Assembly: GCF_014467015.1 (NCBI RefSeq)
Contig: NZ_CP058559.1
Location: 372,001 to 436,000 of the forward strand
Source of the DNA: Alkalicella caledoniensis
GTDB taxonomy: Bacteria > Bacillota > Proteinivoracia > Proteinivoracales > Proteinivoracaceae
Length of the DNA stretch: 64,000 nucleotides
Direction: 5' to 3'
A program made the position numbers and the translations under genes. Positions within the stretch are counted from its first letter, which is position 1. The number at the start of each line of letters is the position of its first letter. Positions 33,408 to 63,006 of this stretch are shown piece after piece. The notes beneath the pieces are model-generated. The model ran no database searches, was not told the DNA's origin, and saw nothing but the letters and a program-made list of their open reading frames with translations.

Positions 33408-34079
33408 CTATGTCTTAATCCAAAACTGATACAATATATAAAGTCCCACAAATATTAGTTTTGTGCCTAGGACAAAATTAACTTTTTTTGTGGCAAATTT
33501 TGAATTAAAGATACTTTGCATTGAGCTTCCTATGAGTGCTACTGCCAATACAGGTATGGCCCTGCCAATTCCGTAAGCAAGTAAAACTGAAATTCCAGTA
33601 ATTATGTTTGCTTCTACCATAACATAACTAATTATTGTTAGAAGAACAGGCAAGGTGCATGGAGCTCCTAAAATGGCAAAAGGAATCCCGAGGATAATTC
33701 CTGTAGTTATACCTTGTCCCTGTCTTTGCTTTTTCTTCGGCACCAATACGTATGTAAGATTTAACCTTACTTTTAAAATGCCCATCATTTTTAAGCCCAT
33801 GATAATTGAAATTGCACTAATGATGTAATAAGCTATCTCTAAATTAAAAAATGCTTTGCCTAGTCCCGAAAATACTACTCCCACAACCATTAGGGTTAAA
33901 ATCATACTTACTAAAAAACTTGTTACTACTTTTAGTTTTGAAAATAAGTTCTTTTTATCCTGCAGAGTATATGAAGCAAGTAGCATAATAGTAGGCAAGC
34001 TACAGGGTGTTACACCACTTAATAAACCTAGCGAGAAAATAAAGCCATACGTACCAAGTATTCCATCATTTGTTCCCAT
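33408..34079 (-). CDS. ccdA: CcdA/DsbD-type membrane thiol transporter
   Basis: A 223-residue protein with six helices. The two redox cysteines of the CcdA family sit in GVTPCSLPTIMLL (first helix) and GAPCTLPVLLTI (fourth helix). It passes reducing equivalents from cytosolic thioredoxin to extracytoplasmic thiols. No partner thioredoxin or cytochrome gene is adjacent; the thioredoxin-like selenoprotein at 37.3 kb is the nearest thiol-redox gene. It stands alone, about 120 bp downstream of the cbi operon end. Confidence 0.85.
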   Translation of the reverse strand: MGTNDGILGTYGFIFSLGLLSGVTPCSLPTIMLLASYTLQDKKNLFSKLKVVTSFLVSMILTLMVVGVVFSGLGKAFFNLEIAYYIISAISIIMGLKMMGILKVRLNLTYVLVPKKKQRQGQGITTGIILGIPFAILGAPCTLPVLLTIISYVMVEANIITGISVLLAYGIGRAIPVLAVALIGSSMQSIFNSKFATKKVNFVLGTKLIFVGLYILYQFWIKT

Positions 34080-34183
34080 AATTTATCCCCCAAGCCAGTT
34101 TTAATATGTATAAGAAATATATTGTTAATTTATGTGTTATAGAACATTTTTTAGAAAATGAGTTTATAGGTGTTAAAAATAAA

Positions 34184-34204
34184 AAAAGCGCTGATAGCGC
34201 TTTT
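34184..34204 (-). terminator. Terminator of the cbi operon
   Basis: AAAAGCGCT/AGCGCTTTT with loop GAT (34184-34204), overlapping the cbiO stop and followed on the minus strand by a T-rich run. Confidence 0.85.
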
Positions 34205-35054
34205 AGTTAACTTTTTTATAGTTCAGTATATTATTATGTGCCTCTAGTATCTTGTTTGCCCCGTCTAAGGGACTTTCTGGATATTCTATTGGGAAACCCA
34301 TGTTGATAAGTTCTTTAAACATCTGGTATAACTGTGGTTGAATTAGGCTTGCATCGGTAAGTAATTTTTGGTTTTTGAAAATTTCTGCTCCCCTAGCTTT
34401 ACCTGCAACCTCGCCTTTATTAAAAACATAAGTTATGTCACTTATGGACGATACTAATTCCATGGCGTGAGTTGTTATAATTAAGGATGTTCCATGATGA
34501 CTATTAAAGTGGTTGATCAAATCTATTATGGACTTTGTAGACTTTGGATCTAAACCGTTGAAGGGCTCATCTAACAGTAGAATTTCGGGGTTTGTAACTA
34601 AGGCACCAGCAATTGCTACTTTTTTCTTTTCACCACCACTCAAATAGTGGGGAACCTTGTTTGCCAACCCCTCTAGATTTAGCTCAGATAGAATCCACTG
34701 AACCCTTTCCTTGATTTCTTTTTCAGGCAATTTATTATTGCGCAGTGTTAAAGCTATGTCATCAAATACAGTTGGAGCAATAATTTGTTCGTCTGAGTTT
34801 TGGAAAACCACACCTACCTTTTCTCGGAAGGTGTGGAATTTTTTATATGGATTTATATCAAAAACACTTAATTCTCCTTCTATCGACTTCATAAGCCCAA
34901 TAATACCTTTAAAAAGCGTTGTTTTACCTGAACCGTTACATCCTAAGACAACAGTTCTTTTGCCTTTTTCTGCAACAAATTCTCCCATAAGCTGCACCTT
35001 TGTTTTATCTGGGTATATGAATGTGACATCCTTTGCTTTAACTATATGTTCCAT
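34203..35054 (-). CDS. cbiO: ECF cobalt/nickel transporter ATPase CbiO
   Basis: ABC ATPase of the energy-coupling-factor importer for cobalt or nickel, 283 residues. Walker A GCNGSGKTT, Q-loop FQNSDEQI, signature LSGGEKKKV and Walker B ILLLDEPF are all present. A C-terminal extension of about 50 residues is typical of the CbiO/EcfA type. AGGAGGGG precedes its ATG. It is the last gene of cbiM-cbiQ-cbiO. Confidence 0.93.
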   Translation of the reverse strand: MEHIVKAKDVTFIYPDKTKVQLMGEFVAEKGKRTVVLGCNGSGKTTLFKGIIGLMKSIEGELSVFDINPYKKFHTFREKVGVVFQNSDEQIIAPTVFDDIALTLRNNKLPEKEIKERVQWILSELNLEGLANKVPHYLSGGEKKKVAIAGALVTNPEILLLDEPFNGLDPKSTKSIIDLINHFNSHHGTSLIITTHAMELVSSISDITYVFNKGEVAGKARGAEIFKNQKLLTDASLIQPQLYQMFKELINMGFPIEYPESPLDGANKILEAHNNILNYKKVN

Positions 35055-35066
35055 TTGCTCCCCTCC

Positions 35067-35765
35067 TTATACCCAAAAATAAATTAGAACTATAAAAACA
35101 CTTAAAAATATTGGGTATGCATTCCATATTGTCATTTTTTCTTTTTGTATTTTAATATTCCCAATTTCATAGCCTCGGATGTGGAAAACTTCTTTCATCC
35201 TTTCTGCTCCATCTAGGGCTCTGATAAAGGTTATAGCCACAGCTCCACCAATATTTTTCAGGTTCCTCAGTATAGATAATCTACCATACCCACCTTTAAT
35301 TTTAATGGCTAAAATCAAATTTGATATCAGGTCATGGAAAATGAAAAAAGACCTATAGGTAAAAAATAATCCATCAACCAAAAATCCAGGCAAAAAACCT
35401 TGTAGCACAGAAAATAAATTGTAAATGGGTGTAGTTACAAATATCAAAATCATAGTTGTAGCTATGGCAACAGCTTTTGTTATCAGCCAAAAACCACTAA
35501 CCTTATCATATCCAAGACCCAAAACTAACAGGCCAGAAAAGAAAATTGGATAAAAAAGCAACGGCAATATTTTAAAAATAGGAATCCTATTTACTATCAT
35601 GACTATAAATAGCAACGCCAGTGTAGCATAGGGAAAATAAACAGATTTAGTAGTAAGTATTAAGATAGTATTAGTTATAGCGAAGAGTAGTTTAAAAGAC
35701 GTATTACTAGAATGTATCGGGCTTTTTTCCTGTGTGGCAATATAATCAATGACCTCTAGTCCCAC
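35067..35765 (-). CDS. cbiQ: ECF transporter transmembrane protein CbiQ
   Basis: A 232-residue T-component with five or six helices. The coupling motif ALDGAERMKEVFHIRG near residue 190 carries the Ala-Arg-Gly type signature that contacts the ATPases. The start is a GTG overlapping the end of cbiM, with GGTGGAAA upstream. It lies 12 bp before cbiO. Confidence 0.9.
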   Translation of the reverse strand: MGLEVIDYIATQEKSPIHSSNTSFKLLFAITNTILILTTKSVYFPYATLALLFIVMIVNRIPIFKILPLLFYPIFFSGLLVLGLGYDKVSGFWLITKAVAIATTMILIFVTTPIYNLFSVLQGFLPGFLVDGLFFTYRSFFIFHDLISNLILAIKIKGGYGRLSILRNLKNIGGAVAITFIRALDGAERMKEVFHIRGYEIGNIKIQKEKMTIWNAYPIFLSVFIVLIYFWV

Positions 35766-36452
35766 TTAATTTCCACCCTTTAGTAAGTAATCTGGCCTTA
35801 TCTTTCTAAAATAATTCACCACTATGGAGCCTATAACAACCTCAATAATGGCTCCTATTGATACAATACCTAAAACAAAAACAGCAAAGTCTGTATTATT
35901 AAAGTTACTATATCTTGCAATAGCTTCTTGATCATGTGTGTGTATAGCTATTTCAGGGGGAATCCCTCCTAGGGTTACCACTGTAACCATAAGGGCAGAG
36001 GAAGCAAGTATCATTATAGCAATTGCTATAGCTAAGCTCACGTTCCAGTTTACTCTTTTATTTAATAGTAGTGAAAAAACACCATAACCTATGATAATTT
36101 CTGTACCCATTATCAGGGTATTAACTCCTACAACTGTAACCCCTCCATGGCCAAAAACCCCAAGAATAAGGTTTACTAAGAAAACAGAAATAAACCCCAA
36201 TTTAGGTCCTAATATTAGTGCTGTTAAAATTGACAAGTTTATGTGAAATGGCAATGGCCCTAAAGGTATTGACATAACAATAAGTGTTAAGGCAGACATA
36301 ACACCTAGTTTAGCAACATTGTTAAACAGTTCTTCTTTTTTTGTGCTCAAAACTACATACCCGATAATAGCGAAGGTAAGTAAAAAACCAAGTAGTATTA
36401 AACCCCAATGTAGTACTCCATCAGTAATATGCAAATGACTCAAAGTGAACAC
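35766..36452 (-). CDS. cbiM: ECF cobalt/nickel substrate-binding protein CbiM
   Basis: Substrate-specific membrane component, 222-228 residues. It has HLHITDGVLHW at the N-terminus and GAVHNA-like metal helices, here IVMSIPLGPLPFHINLSILTALILGPKLGF. In this family the mature Met1-His2 binds the metal. The open frame starts with GTG at 36452, which overlaps the GGAGGT ribosome site. A TTG at 36443 is better spaced. A TTG at 36434 would give the classical MHITDG terminus but is 15 bases from that site. Cobalt or nickel cannot be decided from sequence. Confidence 0.88.
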   Translation of the reverse strand: MFTLSHLHITDGVLHWGLILLGFLLTFAIIGYVVLSTKKEELFNNVAKLGVMSALTLIVMSIPLGPLPFHINLSILTALILGPKLGFISVFLVNLILGVFGHGGVTVVGVNTLIMGTEIIIGYGVFSLLLNKRVNWNVSLAIAIAIMILASSALMVTVVTLGGIPPEIAIHTHDQEAIARYSNFNNTDFAVFVLGIVSIGAIIEVVIGSIVVNYFRKIRPDYLLKGGN

Positions 36453-37274: not shown

Positions 37275-37300
37275 GAAAGTAGACGTTACTGTCTACTTTC
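37275..37300 (-). terminator. Terminator of the small selenoprotein gene
   Basis: GAAAGTAGAC/GTCTACTTTC with a six-base loop, followed on the minus strand by eight T residues. It overlaps the last codons of the gene. Confidence 0.9.
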
Positions 37301-37615
37301 AAGAAGTTCTTTTATGTCGTCATAATTTAGTCCACCATGAAATCTTGGCAGGTTATTAACTAGTGTAATAGGAAGTGTAACAAGACCACTGTCAACCATT
37401 TTTAAGATTTCCGAGTATTCTTGTACATCATCAGAAAAGATATCCACGAATTCTATATTTGCTTTACCAGCAAAGTCTTTTGTAAGTTTTTCTTTGATTG
37501 AATTCACTTCTGAGACAACGTCAAAATTATCGCCACAACCTGTGGCTCCAGATTTAGGGCCTCAACCACAGCTAGAAGTGTTATAAGTAGTTCCTAGTAC
37601 AACGATTTTGTCCAC
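37286..37615 (-). CDS. Thioredoxin-like selenoprotein (in-frame TGA)
   Basis: An open frame from GTG 37615 to stop 37286 holds one TGA (37564-37562), read as selenocysteine 18, giving 109 residues. The N-terminus MDKIVVLGTTYNTSSCGUGP is a beta strand plus redox loop with C16-G-U18, and another cysteine lies at C27. The rest has thioredoxin-fold features (IEFVDIFSDD, then a cis-Pro-like LVTLPITLVNN), recalling YuzD/DUF1462 proteins. A SECIS-like hairpin follows the TGA. An upstream in-frame TAG at 37627 bounds the start. It has its own promoter and terminator. A Cys-to-TGA nonsense mutation is the alternative. Confidence 0.82.
37532..37564 (-). promoter_or_regulatory. Candidate SECIS element of the small selenoprotein
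   Basis: After the TGA, the minus strand forms GCCACA-GGT-TGTGGC (37546-37532). The GGT lies 21 bases from the TGA, inside the normal bacterial range and close to the 18 seen in fdhA. The loop is short and would open to AGGTT if the last pair breaks. Confidence 0.75.
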
Positions 37616-37656: not shown

Positions 37657-37685
37657 ATTATAAATTAGATTATAGTATTTTTCAA
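37657..37685 (-). promoter_or_regulatory. Promoter of the small selenoprotein gene
   Basis: TTGAAA (37685-37680), 17-bp spacer, TATAAT (37662-37657) on the minus strand: an almost perfect housekeeping promoter 40 bp before the GTG start. Confidence 0.75.
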
Positions 37686-39713: not shown

Positions 39714-39845
39714 TCAGAATGAAGACAAACCTAAGAAAAAGTCATTGACCCTAGATGTGCATATTAAAAAGCTGTACAATTAATTCGAGGAGAAAGAGTT
39801 AAGTGCTGAATAGCTAAACGGAAGAAGGGGCGAGGAACAGGACGT

Positions 39846-41502
39846 CAGACTGTGTGGCTAATCTCTAAAAACTCAAAGATTAGCCGTAAATTTCCTGTCT
39901 TTTGGTGCAATATGACTTAAACATATAAAAATACAATGATAAAGTGGGTCTAAGAGCTACTAATATCCTTAGTAGTTCTTTCACTCCTATAATATTTATT
40001 ACTCTTTTAAAATTATAGGCTAGCAAAACTAGGGCTGTCTCTGTAGTTACAGAATCCATCCCTCTTGTTAAAAAATACCCAGCATTCATTGTCCTTTTGA
40101 TGGTTCCATAAGGATGCTCAACAATCATCTGCCTTTGTAGGTATTTGTCCATATTTGCTTCTGTTCTAGCATCTATAGTATCCAAAAAATCTTGGTTAGG
40201 TGACCGATTTATTATCCTGCCTTTGGCTGCAGTGGTGCATTTGCTTTTTGATTCACAGTTTTTACAGGCATCGTAGTTTCTATATTTTATTCTTTTTGGT
40301 TCTTTTGATTTGTGGTTTATTCTGCGTAATTCATGGCCCAAAGGACAAATATATAAGTCTTTTTCAGGCACATAAGTAAATTTATCTCCGTAGAAATCTT
40401 TGTCTCCTGTGGCGTTAGAATACGACTGTTTTGGCAAATAGACTGTTGTTTCGTTTCTCTCACATTTCATAAGGTCGTCTGCTTGGTAATAGCCTTTATC
40501 TGCTGCTACTTCAAGTTTCCTTTTTCCAAATATATCTTTAGCCTTTTCTGCAAGTGAATTTAGATTACCTTGATCTGCGGGATTGTTTGTAACATCATAT
40601 GCCACTATAATACTATGCTTAGAGTCTACAGCTGTTTGTATGTTATATGCTACAGTAACACCATTGTTTTTGTTGTCCATAAGCCTAGCATCTTCGTCAA
40701 CTGTAGATATTTCATTACTTTCGCTATCCTGTAGTTTTTTTTCCAACTCTTCAAATTTAATTTTACGCTCCTTGAGTTTTTCAATTTTTTGCTGAATTTC
40801 TTCAGGTGTATACTTAAGTTTAGGTGAATCGTCTTTGTCACTGCTTTCTAACAAATCTAGATAGGAATTAACCTTATCTTCGATATATTGTTTGTGTCTT
40901 TGTATTTTTTTCTTTGAGAAATTATTCTTCTTTGAATTATTAGCTTGAATTTTAGTCCCATCTATTGCTATGAATTCCTCGCCTAATAGTTTGAGATCCT
41001 TACACAACTTAGTAAAATCCTTGAAAACTTGTTTTAGCTGAGTTTTATTTTCTTTCCTGAAATCAGCTATTGTTTTAAAATCAGGTTTTAGTTTTTGTAA
41101 TAGCCAAACCACTTCTATATTCCTGTGAGATTCTGTTTCTAGCTTTCTAGATGATCTTATGCCATTTACATACCCATATAGATATAACTTCAATAAAACA
41201 GAGGGATGATATCCTGGTGCACCTCTGCGGTGTTCCTTTGATTTAGTGAATGCACTCATATTGACCAGTTTTACGTATTCATCAATTACCCTAACGGGAT
41301 TATCCTCACCTATGTAATCTTCTATGCAGTCAGGAAACATTGTTTTTTGCTTTCTATCTGTACCTTGTATAAATGACATTTAAAATCCCCTCTCCGATAT
41401 TCTATAACTTAATTATACTACAGAAAAAGGGAAAAGTACTGTATTTACAGTACTTTGTAGGCATTTTAGACATATATTATTGTTTAATTCTCACACAGTC
41501 TG
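39846..41502 (-). mobile_element. IS1182-family insertion sequence
   Basis: 1,657 bp bounded by inverted repeats CAGACTGTGTG (39846-39856) and CACACAGTCTG (41492-41502). ACGT flanks both ends (39842-39845 and 41503-41506), so this is a 4-bp target duplication. Because ACGT is its own complement, it looks like part of the repeats. It carries one intact transposase gene, so the element may be active or recently inserted. Confidence 0.9.
39880..41379 (-). CDS. IS1182-family transposase
   Basis: A 499-residue DDE transposase, full length. N-terminal DUF772-like region (GAPGYHPSVLLKLYLYGYVNGIRSSRKL); catalytic Asp candidates in FIAIDGTKIQANNSKK and VAADKGYYQADD; a cysteine cluster CKNCESKSKC; and the C-terminal HPYGTIKRTMNAGYFLTRG motif with its Glu just before (MIVEHPYG). 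No frameshift or stop interrupts it. The coiled-coil middle is Lys/Glu-rich. Confidence 0.95.
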   Translation of the reverse strand: MSFIQGTDRKQKTMFPDCIEDYIGEDNPVRVIDEYVKLVNMSAFTKSKEHRRGAPGYHPSVLLKLYLYGYVNGIRSSRKLETESHRNIEVVWLLQKLKPDFKTIADFRKENKTQLKQVFKDFTKLCKDLKLLGEEFIAIDGTKIQANNSKKNNFSKKKIQRHKQYIEDKVNSYLDLLESSDKDDSPKLKYTPEEIQQKIEKLKERKIKFEELEKKLQDSESNEISTVDEDARLMDNKNNGVTVAYNIQTAVDSKHSIIVAYDVTNNPADQGNLNSLAEKAKDIFGKRKLEVAADKGYYQADDLMKCERNETTVYLPKQSYSNATGDKDFYGDKFTYVPEKDLYICPLGHELRRINHKSKEPKRIKYRNYDACKNCESKSKCTTAAKGRIINRSPNQDFLDTIDARTEANMDKYLQRQMIVEHPYGTIKRTMNAGYFLTRGMDSVTTETALVLLAYNFKRVINIIGVKELLRILVALRPTLSLYFYMFKSYCTKRQEIYG

Positions 41503-41651
41503 ACGTTTCGAGAGCTCCATTGAACCATGGACGGTGAATTGGAGCGGTCCCCTTCTGGAGTTTAGATAGAAGCCTTAAGTCTCGACGCAGAATTCTGTAC
41601 AGTGTTTAATATGCGACATTCATCAAAAATGACTTTGTCATCAGTATAAAA

Positions 41652-47505: not shown

Positions 47506-47750
47506 ATAAAAAACCCTATCATCCATATAGGACGAAAGGGTTTCATTTCCGCGGTACCACCTAATTTCCGAATTATTAATTCGGCTCTCATACTAATAAC
47601 GGAAGTTTCCGGCTTATCCTACTGTTGTTCAGATAAGCAGCTTGTAGGCGACTTTCAGTACACATCTGGAGGAAACTCGCAGCTAAATGCTTCCTTCTCT
47701 GAACCAGAGTAATTACCTACTCCTCCTACTCATAGCTTTTGAGTATTTGT
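47506..47750 (-). promoter_or_regulatory. T-box riboswitch upstream of valS
   Basis: The minus strand carries the T-box signature AGGTGGTACCGCGG (47563-47550). It is followed by an intrinsic terminator (stem AACCCTTTCGTCC-type, about 47543-47509, ending in a T-run) 50 bp before valS. Upstream, about 47600-47745 forms the long Stem I with AGAGAAGG. Its specifier region contains GTAC, consistent with a valine GTA or GTN codon. Uncharged tRNA-Val should stabilise the antiterminator. Confidence 0.93.
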
Positions 47751-57873: not shown

Positions 57874-57948
57874 TGGCTCCTCAGGTAGGATTTGAACCTA
57901 CGACCTACCGGTTAACAGCCGGTTGCTCCACCACTGAGCTACTGAGGA
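57874..57948 (-). tRNA. tRNA-Asn (GTT), CCA encoded
   Basis: On the minus strand TCCTCAG begins the acceptor stem and CTGAGGA closes it, followed by discriminator G and an encoded CCA. The anticodon loop CTGTTAA carries GTT, and the T-loop TTCAAAT is normal. It is the last element of the ribosomal RNA operon, directly after the 5S gene. Confidence 0.95.
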
Positions 57949-57953
57949 ATATT

Positions 57954-58068
57954 ACCTAGCGACGTCCTACTCTCCCAGGGGGTAACCCCAAGTACCATCG
58001 GCGCTGAAGAGCTTAACTGCGGTGTTCGGAATGGGAACCGGTGTATCCTCTTCGCCATCATCACTAGA
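57954..58068 (-). rRNA. rrf: 5S ribosomal RNA
   Basis: About 115 bases. On the minus strand it opens with CTAGTGATGATGGCGAAGAGG and has the conserved ACACCGGTTCCCATTCCGAAC. Its end, CGTCGCTAG, pairs with the start. The ends are estimated to within a few bases. Confidence 0.95.
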
Positions 58069-58168
58069 TGAAACTATCACACTAAATTCATAGCAAGGTT
58101 TTCAAAGGTTTTATTCTTAAAGTTTTTCCTGACTGCTGACTACTGTCAGCTGACAGCTTAAATATTTA

Positions 58169-63006
<4,838 letters not shown>

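Follow-up and report, generated by a model that had tools for sequence, protein, structure and literature searches.

A putative small thioredoxin-fold selenoprotein with likeness to ArsD and a possible role in metalloid handling

ArsD binds As(III) through three cysteines, and the presence of selenocysteine (Sec) in a protein is normally explained by redox catalysis. Small thioredoxin-fold selenoproteins that carry Sec in an N-terminal extension or loop, and for which Cys forms are known, have been described in Brachyspira as Sec.1 and Sec.2 (PMC5330540). A 2026 review comprises 119 prokaryotic selenoprotein families, among which we found no YuzD-, DUF1462- or ArsD-like family, although an earlier mention is not fully excluded (PMC13188914). 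The families added by deep-Sep stem from other bacteria (PMC12013277); three of these additions are domainless hypothetical proteins, which could be excluded only by missing NCBIfam matches. NCBIfam as of June 2026 holds no model naming the family that is addressed here. In this work, we analysed a 64-kb window, i.e. the whole stretch of DNA from the genome of Alkalicella caledoniensis that had been read beforehand, which carries a gene belonging to an apparently undescribed and widespread family of small thioredoxin-fold proteins, which are often encoded within arsenic-resistance operons.

A reading frame across an in-frame TGA and the Sec machinery of the genome

The minus-strand frame 37615-37286 contains a single internal stop, a TGA at codon 18, and ends with TAA as codon 110. 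An earlier note, made from the letters alone, had proposed that this frame starts at GTG 37615 and reads through the TGA at 37562-37564, which was placed within a redox loop, C16-G-U18. Both proposals hold, as the frame comprises 109 codons with just this one internal stop, and the Sec position is occupied by Sec or Cys across the family. The deduced protein reads VDKIVVLGTTYNTSSCGUGPKSGATGCGDNFDVV...ESRQ, with C16 encoded at 37570-37568 and C27 at 37537-37535 (Table 1), and has no visible signal peptide. That standard gene callers would deliver only the last 73 residues was likewise borne out: under table 11 the sole listing for the selenoprotein frame is the 73-residue ORF 37286-37507, which begins at an internal GTG. 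The proposal would have been refuted by homologues starting only at this downstream GTG, 37507, by the lack of any homologue with Cys/Sec at position 18, or by the absence of Sec genes from the genome; those detected are full length, begin upstream and do possess Cys or Sec at this position. The 64-kb window holds nine comparably shaped frames that read through a TGA, and in the 37615-37286 frame only is a Cys located within three codons of the TGA. Because this applies to just one of the nine frames, and because profile matches reveal that homologues keep the reading frame before as well as after the TGA, the frame is, judged from its sequence, more than a chance product.

Table 1. Positions of the elements of the proposed selenoprotein gene within the window
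Feature	Position	Strand	Basis
Proposed selenoprotein CDS, 109 residues, U18, GTG start, TAA stop	37286..37615	-	Frame and full-length homologues
In-frame TGA, codon 18, proposed selenocysteine codon (U18)	37562..37564	-	Main Sec column of family U or C only
Chalcogen loop C16-G-U18-G-P...C27-G, strand 1 to helix 1, unresolved	37535..37570	-	Sequence, alignment, model
SECIS-like hairpin GCCACA-GGT-TGTGGC, loop 21 nt after TGA	37532..37546	-	Borderline as single gene
Promoter-like site TTGAAA-17-TATAAT	37657..37685	-	11/12 matches; consensus match only
Intrinsic terminator, 10-bp stem then T8, overlapping stop codon	37275..37300	-	Sequence
73-aa ORF, C-terminal part of same protein, standard gene caller product	37286..37507	-	ORF list, table 11

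The near-consensus promoter and the T8 terminator that had been ascribed to the gene were both found, and the window copy may be expressed from these elements of its own. It is monocistronic, lies outside any ars operon and is neighboured by a PRC-barrel gene, YetF and CbiMQO-like transporter genes. The latter (CbiM/CbiQ/CbiO-like) occupy window positions 33408-36452 on the minus strand together with a subsequent gene for a CcdA/DsbD-type membrane protein. Two related genomes likewise encode CbiM downstream of their Cys orthologue. A role in cobalt/nickel transport, considered on account of this association, was set aside, as the association is absent from the wider family and confined to the same bacterial family as the window genome. 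Elsewhere, the window contains an rRNA operon with tRNA-Asn (57877-63006) and a T-box leader (47525-47742, minus strand).

The genome (3.70 Mb) was also inspected for the Sec genes named in the earlier note, and selA, selB, selD and tRNA-Sec (selC) are all present. They are found together with a LysR-type gene in one locus, C1:2181280-2186644, in which selB scores 385 bits (cut-off 242) and tRNA-Sec scores 73 bits. In addition, the known CC/Se family (NF041239) is represented by a gene elsewhere, at C1:715676-715948 (L147), which also has an in-frame TGA. Since the Sec locus is complete and the same genome holds this TGA-containing NF041239 gene, decoding of UGA as Sec in this organism is well supported, as far as genome data can tell. 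Of note, selD (G000:C1:2185455-2186381, L048), which is separated from selB by the LysR-type gene, has an in-frame TGA of its own, and SelD of this genome is probably a selenoprotein, too.

A second copy of the gene is located at the end of an arsR-arsD-arsA-arsA operon in the same genome. It is broken in two by an insertion sequence (IS) of ~1665 bp, its start reading LKVIDIEIFGVKTEP and its remainder ASCGUGPSVSCGP... The IS, 1665 bp in length and encoding a DDE transposase (PF13751/PF05598), is also present in the window (39843-41507); the two copies, the other one residing at L110:7964-9628 (G000:C1 ~2285963-2287627), are 99.94% identical and are flanked by 4-bp target repeats, ACGT at the window IS and CCGT at the IS in the second copy. 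As the second copy is split by the IS, the window copy is the only uninterrupted family member found in this genome.

Exchange of Sec and Cys in the family and the hairpin downstream of the TGA

Searching genome contigs with the single protein yielded no family match; members emerged only when profiles were used. The family search was confined to the source phylum, and members were detected in 60 of its 398 genomes. No family match was obtained in plasmid and phage collections. Profile-search matches and named loci (from Desulfoscipio, Sporotomaculum, Desulfotruncus, Pelotomaculum, Syntrophaceticus and others) were combined to a set of 73 non-redundant members covering the loop, which contains an in-frame TGA in 41 of them and Cys in the other 32. 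The main Sec column is occupied by U in 27 and by C in 46 cases, with no other residue occurring; in the remaining TGA members the TGA is found one to seven columns off this position (C-U, CMG-U, CS-U-U). Members with tandem TGA-TGA codons (GCSUUGPP), putatively decoded as Sec-Sec by appearance, were observed in two Desulfotomaculaceae assemblies (L077:3399-3734, minus strand, and L078:5998-6333, plus strand). The Cys form present in two genomes of the same family as the window genome (SCCSKGGSC) begins upstream of the redox loop, and its gene sits between the PRC-barrel region and cbiM, as does the window gene.

A single TGA interrupts 19 of the 51 matches with E<=1e-6, and neither TAA nor TAG occurs in any of them, an outcome with a probability of ~1e-9 were the three stops equally likely. 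This count rests on the phylum profile search, in which all stops were read through; the sequences of the 73-member set ended at TAA/TAG. A tree calculated without the loop columns requires at least 14 changes between Sec and Cys, of which supported branches enforce 10. It is built on few columns and its deep branches are unsure. Moreover, selB was detected above cut-off in 58/60 genomes carrying the family versus 205/338 non-carriers (p 9e-10), a value that is indicative only, as the genomes are related to one another.

The hairpin GCCACA-GGT-TGTGGC with its GGT 21 nt after the TGA, as noted earlier, exists in the sequence (37546-37532). Its proposed role as a SECIS element is clear at the level of the family and only borderline for the window gene alone. 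In 37/41 Sec genes, a hairpin with a G in the first two loop positions is located 14-26 nt after the TGA (median -5.0 kcal/mol), whereas most of the 32 Cys genes have no equivalent hairpin or only a weak one when distances are counted from a loop Cys codon (median 0; Mann-Whitney p 3e-9). As in the window gene, a triloop stem follows the TGA at a distance of exactly 21 nt in 15 members, and these exhibit paired changes in the stem, e.g. G-C to A-T and A-T to C-G. When the window hairpin was compared by itself with synonymous recoding, p was ~0.06; in folding, a competing structure was preferred with 36-48 nt of sequence, and the hairpin was part of the minimum free energy structure with 54 nt. 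Folds of the L057 and L076 stretches were left out, as these stretches lay too far upstream to include the complete hairpins. We are confident that the window gene encodes a genuine selenoprotein, a conclusion reached without any measurement of protein or selenium.

Predicted fold, arsenic gene neighbourhoods and possible function

AlphaFold modelling with the family alignment (pLDDT 82, pTM 0.72) predicted a thioredoxin fold of beta-alpha-beta-alpha-beta-beta-alpha topology with residues 14-28, i.e. the loop, unresolved. The YuzD-like fold suggested in the earlier note is supported, as 1xg8 (YuzD/DUF1462) is the best structural match of the model (Z 11.2), ranking before ArsD (3mwh, Z 9.5) and many thioredoxins (Z ~8-9). 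At the sequence level, weak matches to MJ0307-type thioredoxins were obtained, and comparison of the window protein with Pfam and NCBIfam gave no usable name.

When the neighbours of family genes were clustered, ArsR, an ArsP_1-type permease, ACR3, ArsA, ArsD, Thioredoxin_3 and ArsM-like genes turned out to recur. A gene for ArsA, ACR3, ArsD or ArsP is present within 6 kb at 32 of 70 non-redundant loci and in none of 20 control stretches taken from these genomes (p 4e-5), and 38/70 loci are without an ars gene in this range. The linkage is nearly equal for Sec (17/38) and Cys forms (15/32). Several genomes (L087, L088, L094) share the gene order arsR-(acr3)-arsD-arsA-arsA-family gene, and a Thioredoxin_3 protein is encoded next to the family gene at 19/70 loci. 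The two relatives of the window gene in its own bacterial family have ArsR, ArsP and Thioredoxin_3 genes a few genes downstream.

Based on these neighbourhoods and the relationship to ArsD, the role of the protein, which had been left open at the outset, can be narrowed by inference to arsenic or metalloid handling rather than peroxide or general disulfide reduction. We regard it as somewhat probable that the product is a partner of ars systems that binds or reduces As(III) or another metalloid. A Sec-decoded gene with an ArsD-like metalloid role is the best explanation overall, and we consider it reasonably probable. For the more far-reaching proposal of an undescribed selenoprotein family whose members act within ars operons as metalloid chaperones or reductases resembling ArsD, with Sec serving as metalloid ligand, the balance is even.

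According to the proposed mechanism, UGA would be decoded as Sec through selB, tRNA-Sec and the SECIS hairpin just downstream, decoding in the cell being inferred. The product would be a small thioredoxin-fold protein related to YuzD/DUF1462 and ArsD, whose mobile N-terminal loop may display two thiols and one selenol (C16, U18, C27). This loop is envisaged to capture a soft metalloid, likeliest As(III) or an organoarsenical, by three-coordinate S/Se ligation as in ArsD, and to hand it over to ArsA, ACR3, ArsP or ArsM as efflux or modifying partner; binding as well as partnership are inferences. Alternatively, the metalloid could be reduced with electrons from small thioredoxins. We prefer the chaperone role owing to the likeness to ArsD, i.e. 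three chalcogen ligands preceding helix 1 in a thioredoxin-like fold. Selenium might confer tighter binding or faster exchange.

The metalloid role has to be weighed against a possible, if rather unlikely, function as a general thiol-selenol oxidoreductase of the thioredoxin/glutaredoxin type, which does not bind metalloids but perhaps reduces peroxides or arsenate/methylarsenate, so that the link to ars genes would reflect the redox need of these operons. The thioredoxin fold, the weak MJ0307-type matches and the frequent Thioredoxin_3 neighbour are all compatible with such a function, and known selenoproteins are mostly redox proteins (PMC13188914). However, a conserved CxxC is missing, the structure is nearer to YuzD and ArsD than to thioredoxins, and Sec shifts by several columns, which fits a set of ligands better than a fixed catalytic nucleophile.

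Handling of selenium itself, e.g. delivery of reduced selenium to SelD, would agree with the near-exclusive occurrence of the family, Cys forms included, in genomes bearing selB; yet its neighbours are ars rather than sel genes, and 205 of the 263 Sec-decoding genomes lack the family, which leaves this function very unlikely. Hardly credible at all is a pseudogene or sequencing error, in which case the TGA would be an ordinary stop and only the 73-residue part translated. The missing individual significance of the window hairpin and the disrupted second copy could be cited in its favour, but TGA is the only stop found at loop positions that are Cys in other members, this holds for dozens of members belonging to many families, Sec and Cys have been exchanged repeatedly, and frame, promoter and terminator are intact.

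Should the metalloid role hold, a selenoprotein family built like ArsD and tied to arsenic operons would suggest that selenium is used to ligate metalloids, and the arsenic tolerance of anaerobes would be linked to their supply of selenium. What selenium contributes can be tested directly, since many Sec/Cys pairs occur naturally. Because its genes are truncated or missed by standard gene calling, the family easily escapes notice.

Comparison with described families

Brachyspira Sec.1 and Sec.2 are the nearest described case and resemble the family in small size, thioredoxin fold, N-terminal Sec and the existence of Cys forms (PMC5330540), but they represent Thioredoxin_3 proteins (PF13192), mostly with CxxC, and thereby a different Pfam family. 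PF13192 does not match the window protein, other members of the family reach only E 0.03, and the genuine PF13192 protein is encoded by a neighbouring gene of its own. The CC/Se family of the Moorella type (NF041239) likewise consists of small clostridial selenoproteins; in this genome its model finds only C1:715676 and not the window gene. VcpD, an ArsD-related vicinal cysteine protein (NF047871), shows a weak N-terminal match with the Pelotomaculum members (E 1.2e-5), which is in line with the ArsD relationship. The best relative scores 25 bits against a cut-off of 90, the window protein is not matched, and NF047871 is not named as a selenoprotein family.

With YuzD/DUF1462 (PF07315; 1xg8, S. 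aureus), fold and length are shared (rmsd 2.7 over 96 residues). At the sequence level, a weak DUF1462 match was obtained for 16/30 family members, one relative passing the gathering score (26.9 vs 25 bits); the window protein itself gives no Pfam match to DUF1462 at all, and a Sec-containing DUF1462 member was not found in the library searched.

The profile match with ArsD (PF06953) spans almost the full length and brings the Cys loops into register (92% probability, E 5e-7); it became clear with a small ArsD alignment, a single ArsD being uninformative. PF06953 itself does not match the window protein, and one relative is detected at E 0.069. ArsD and the family share operons, in which they are often adjacent, while true ArsD genes remain separate neighbours. 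The vicinal CC of the ArsD site, CCxxxxCGP (Cys-Cys-x4-Cys-Gly-Pro), is missing from most family members, and the window loop, C-G-U-G-P...C-G, is comparable to, albeit not identical with, the CC...CGP metalloid site of ArsD.
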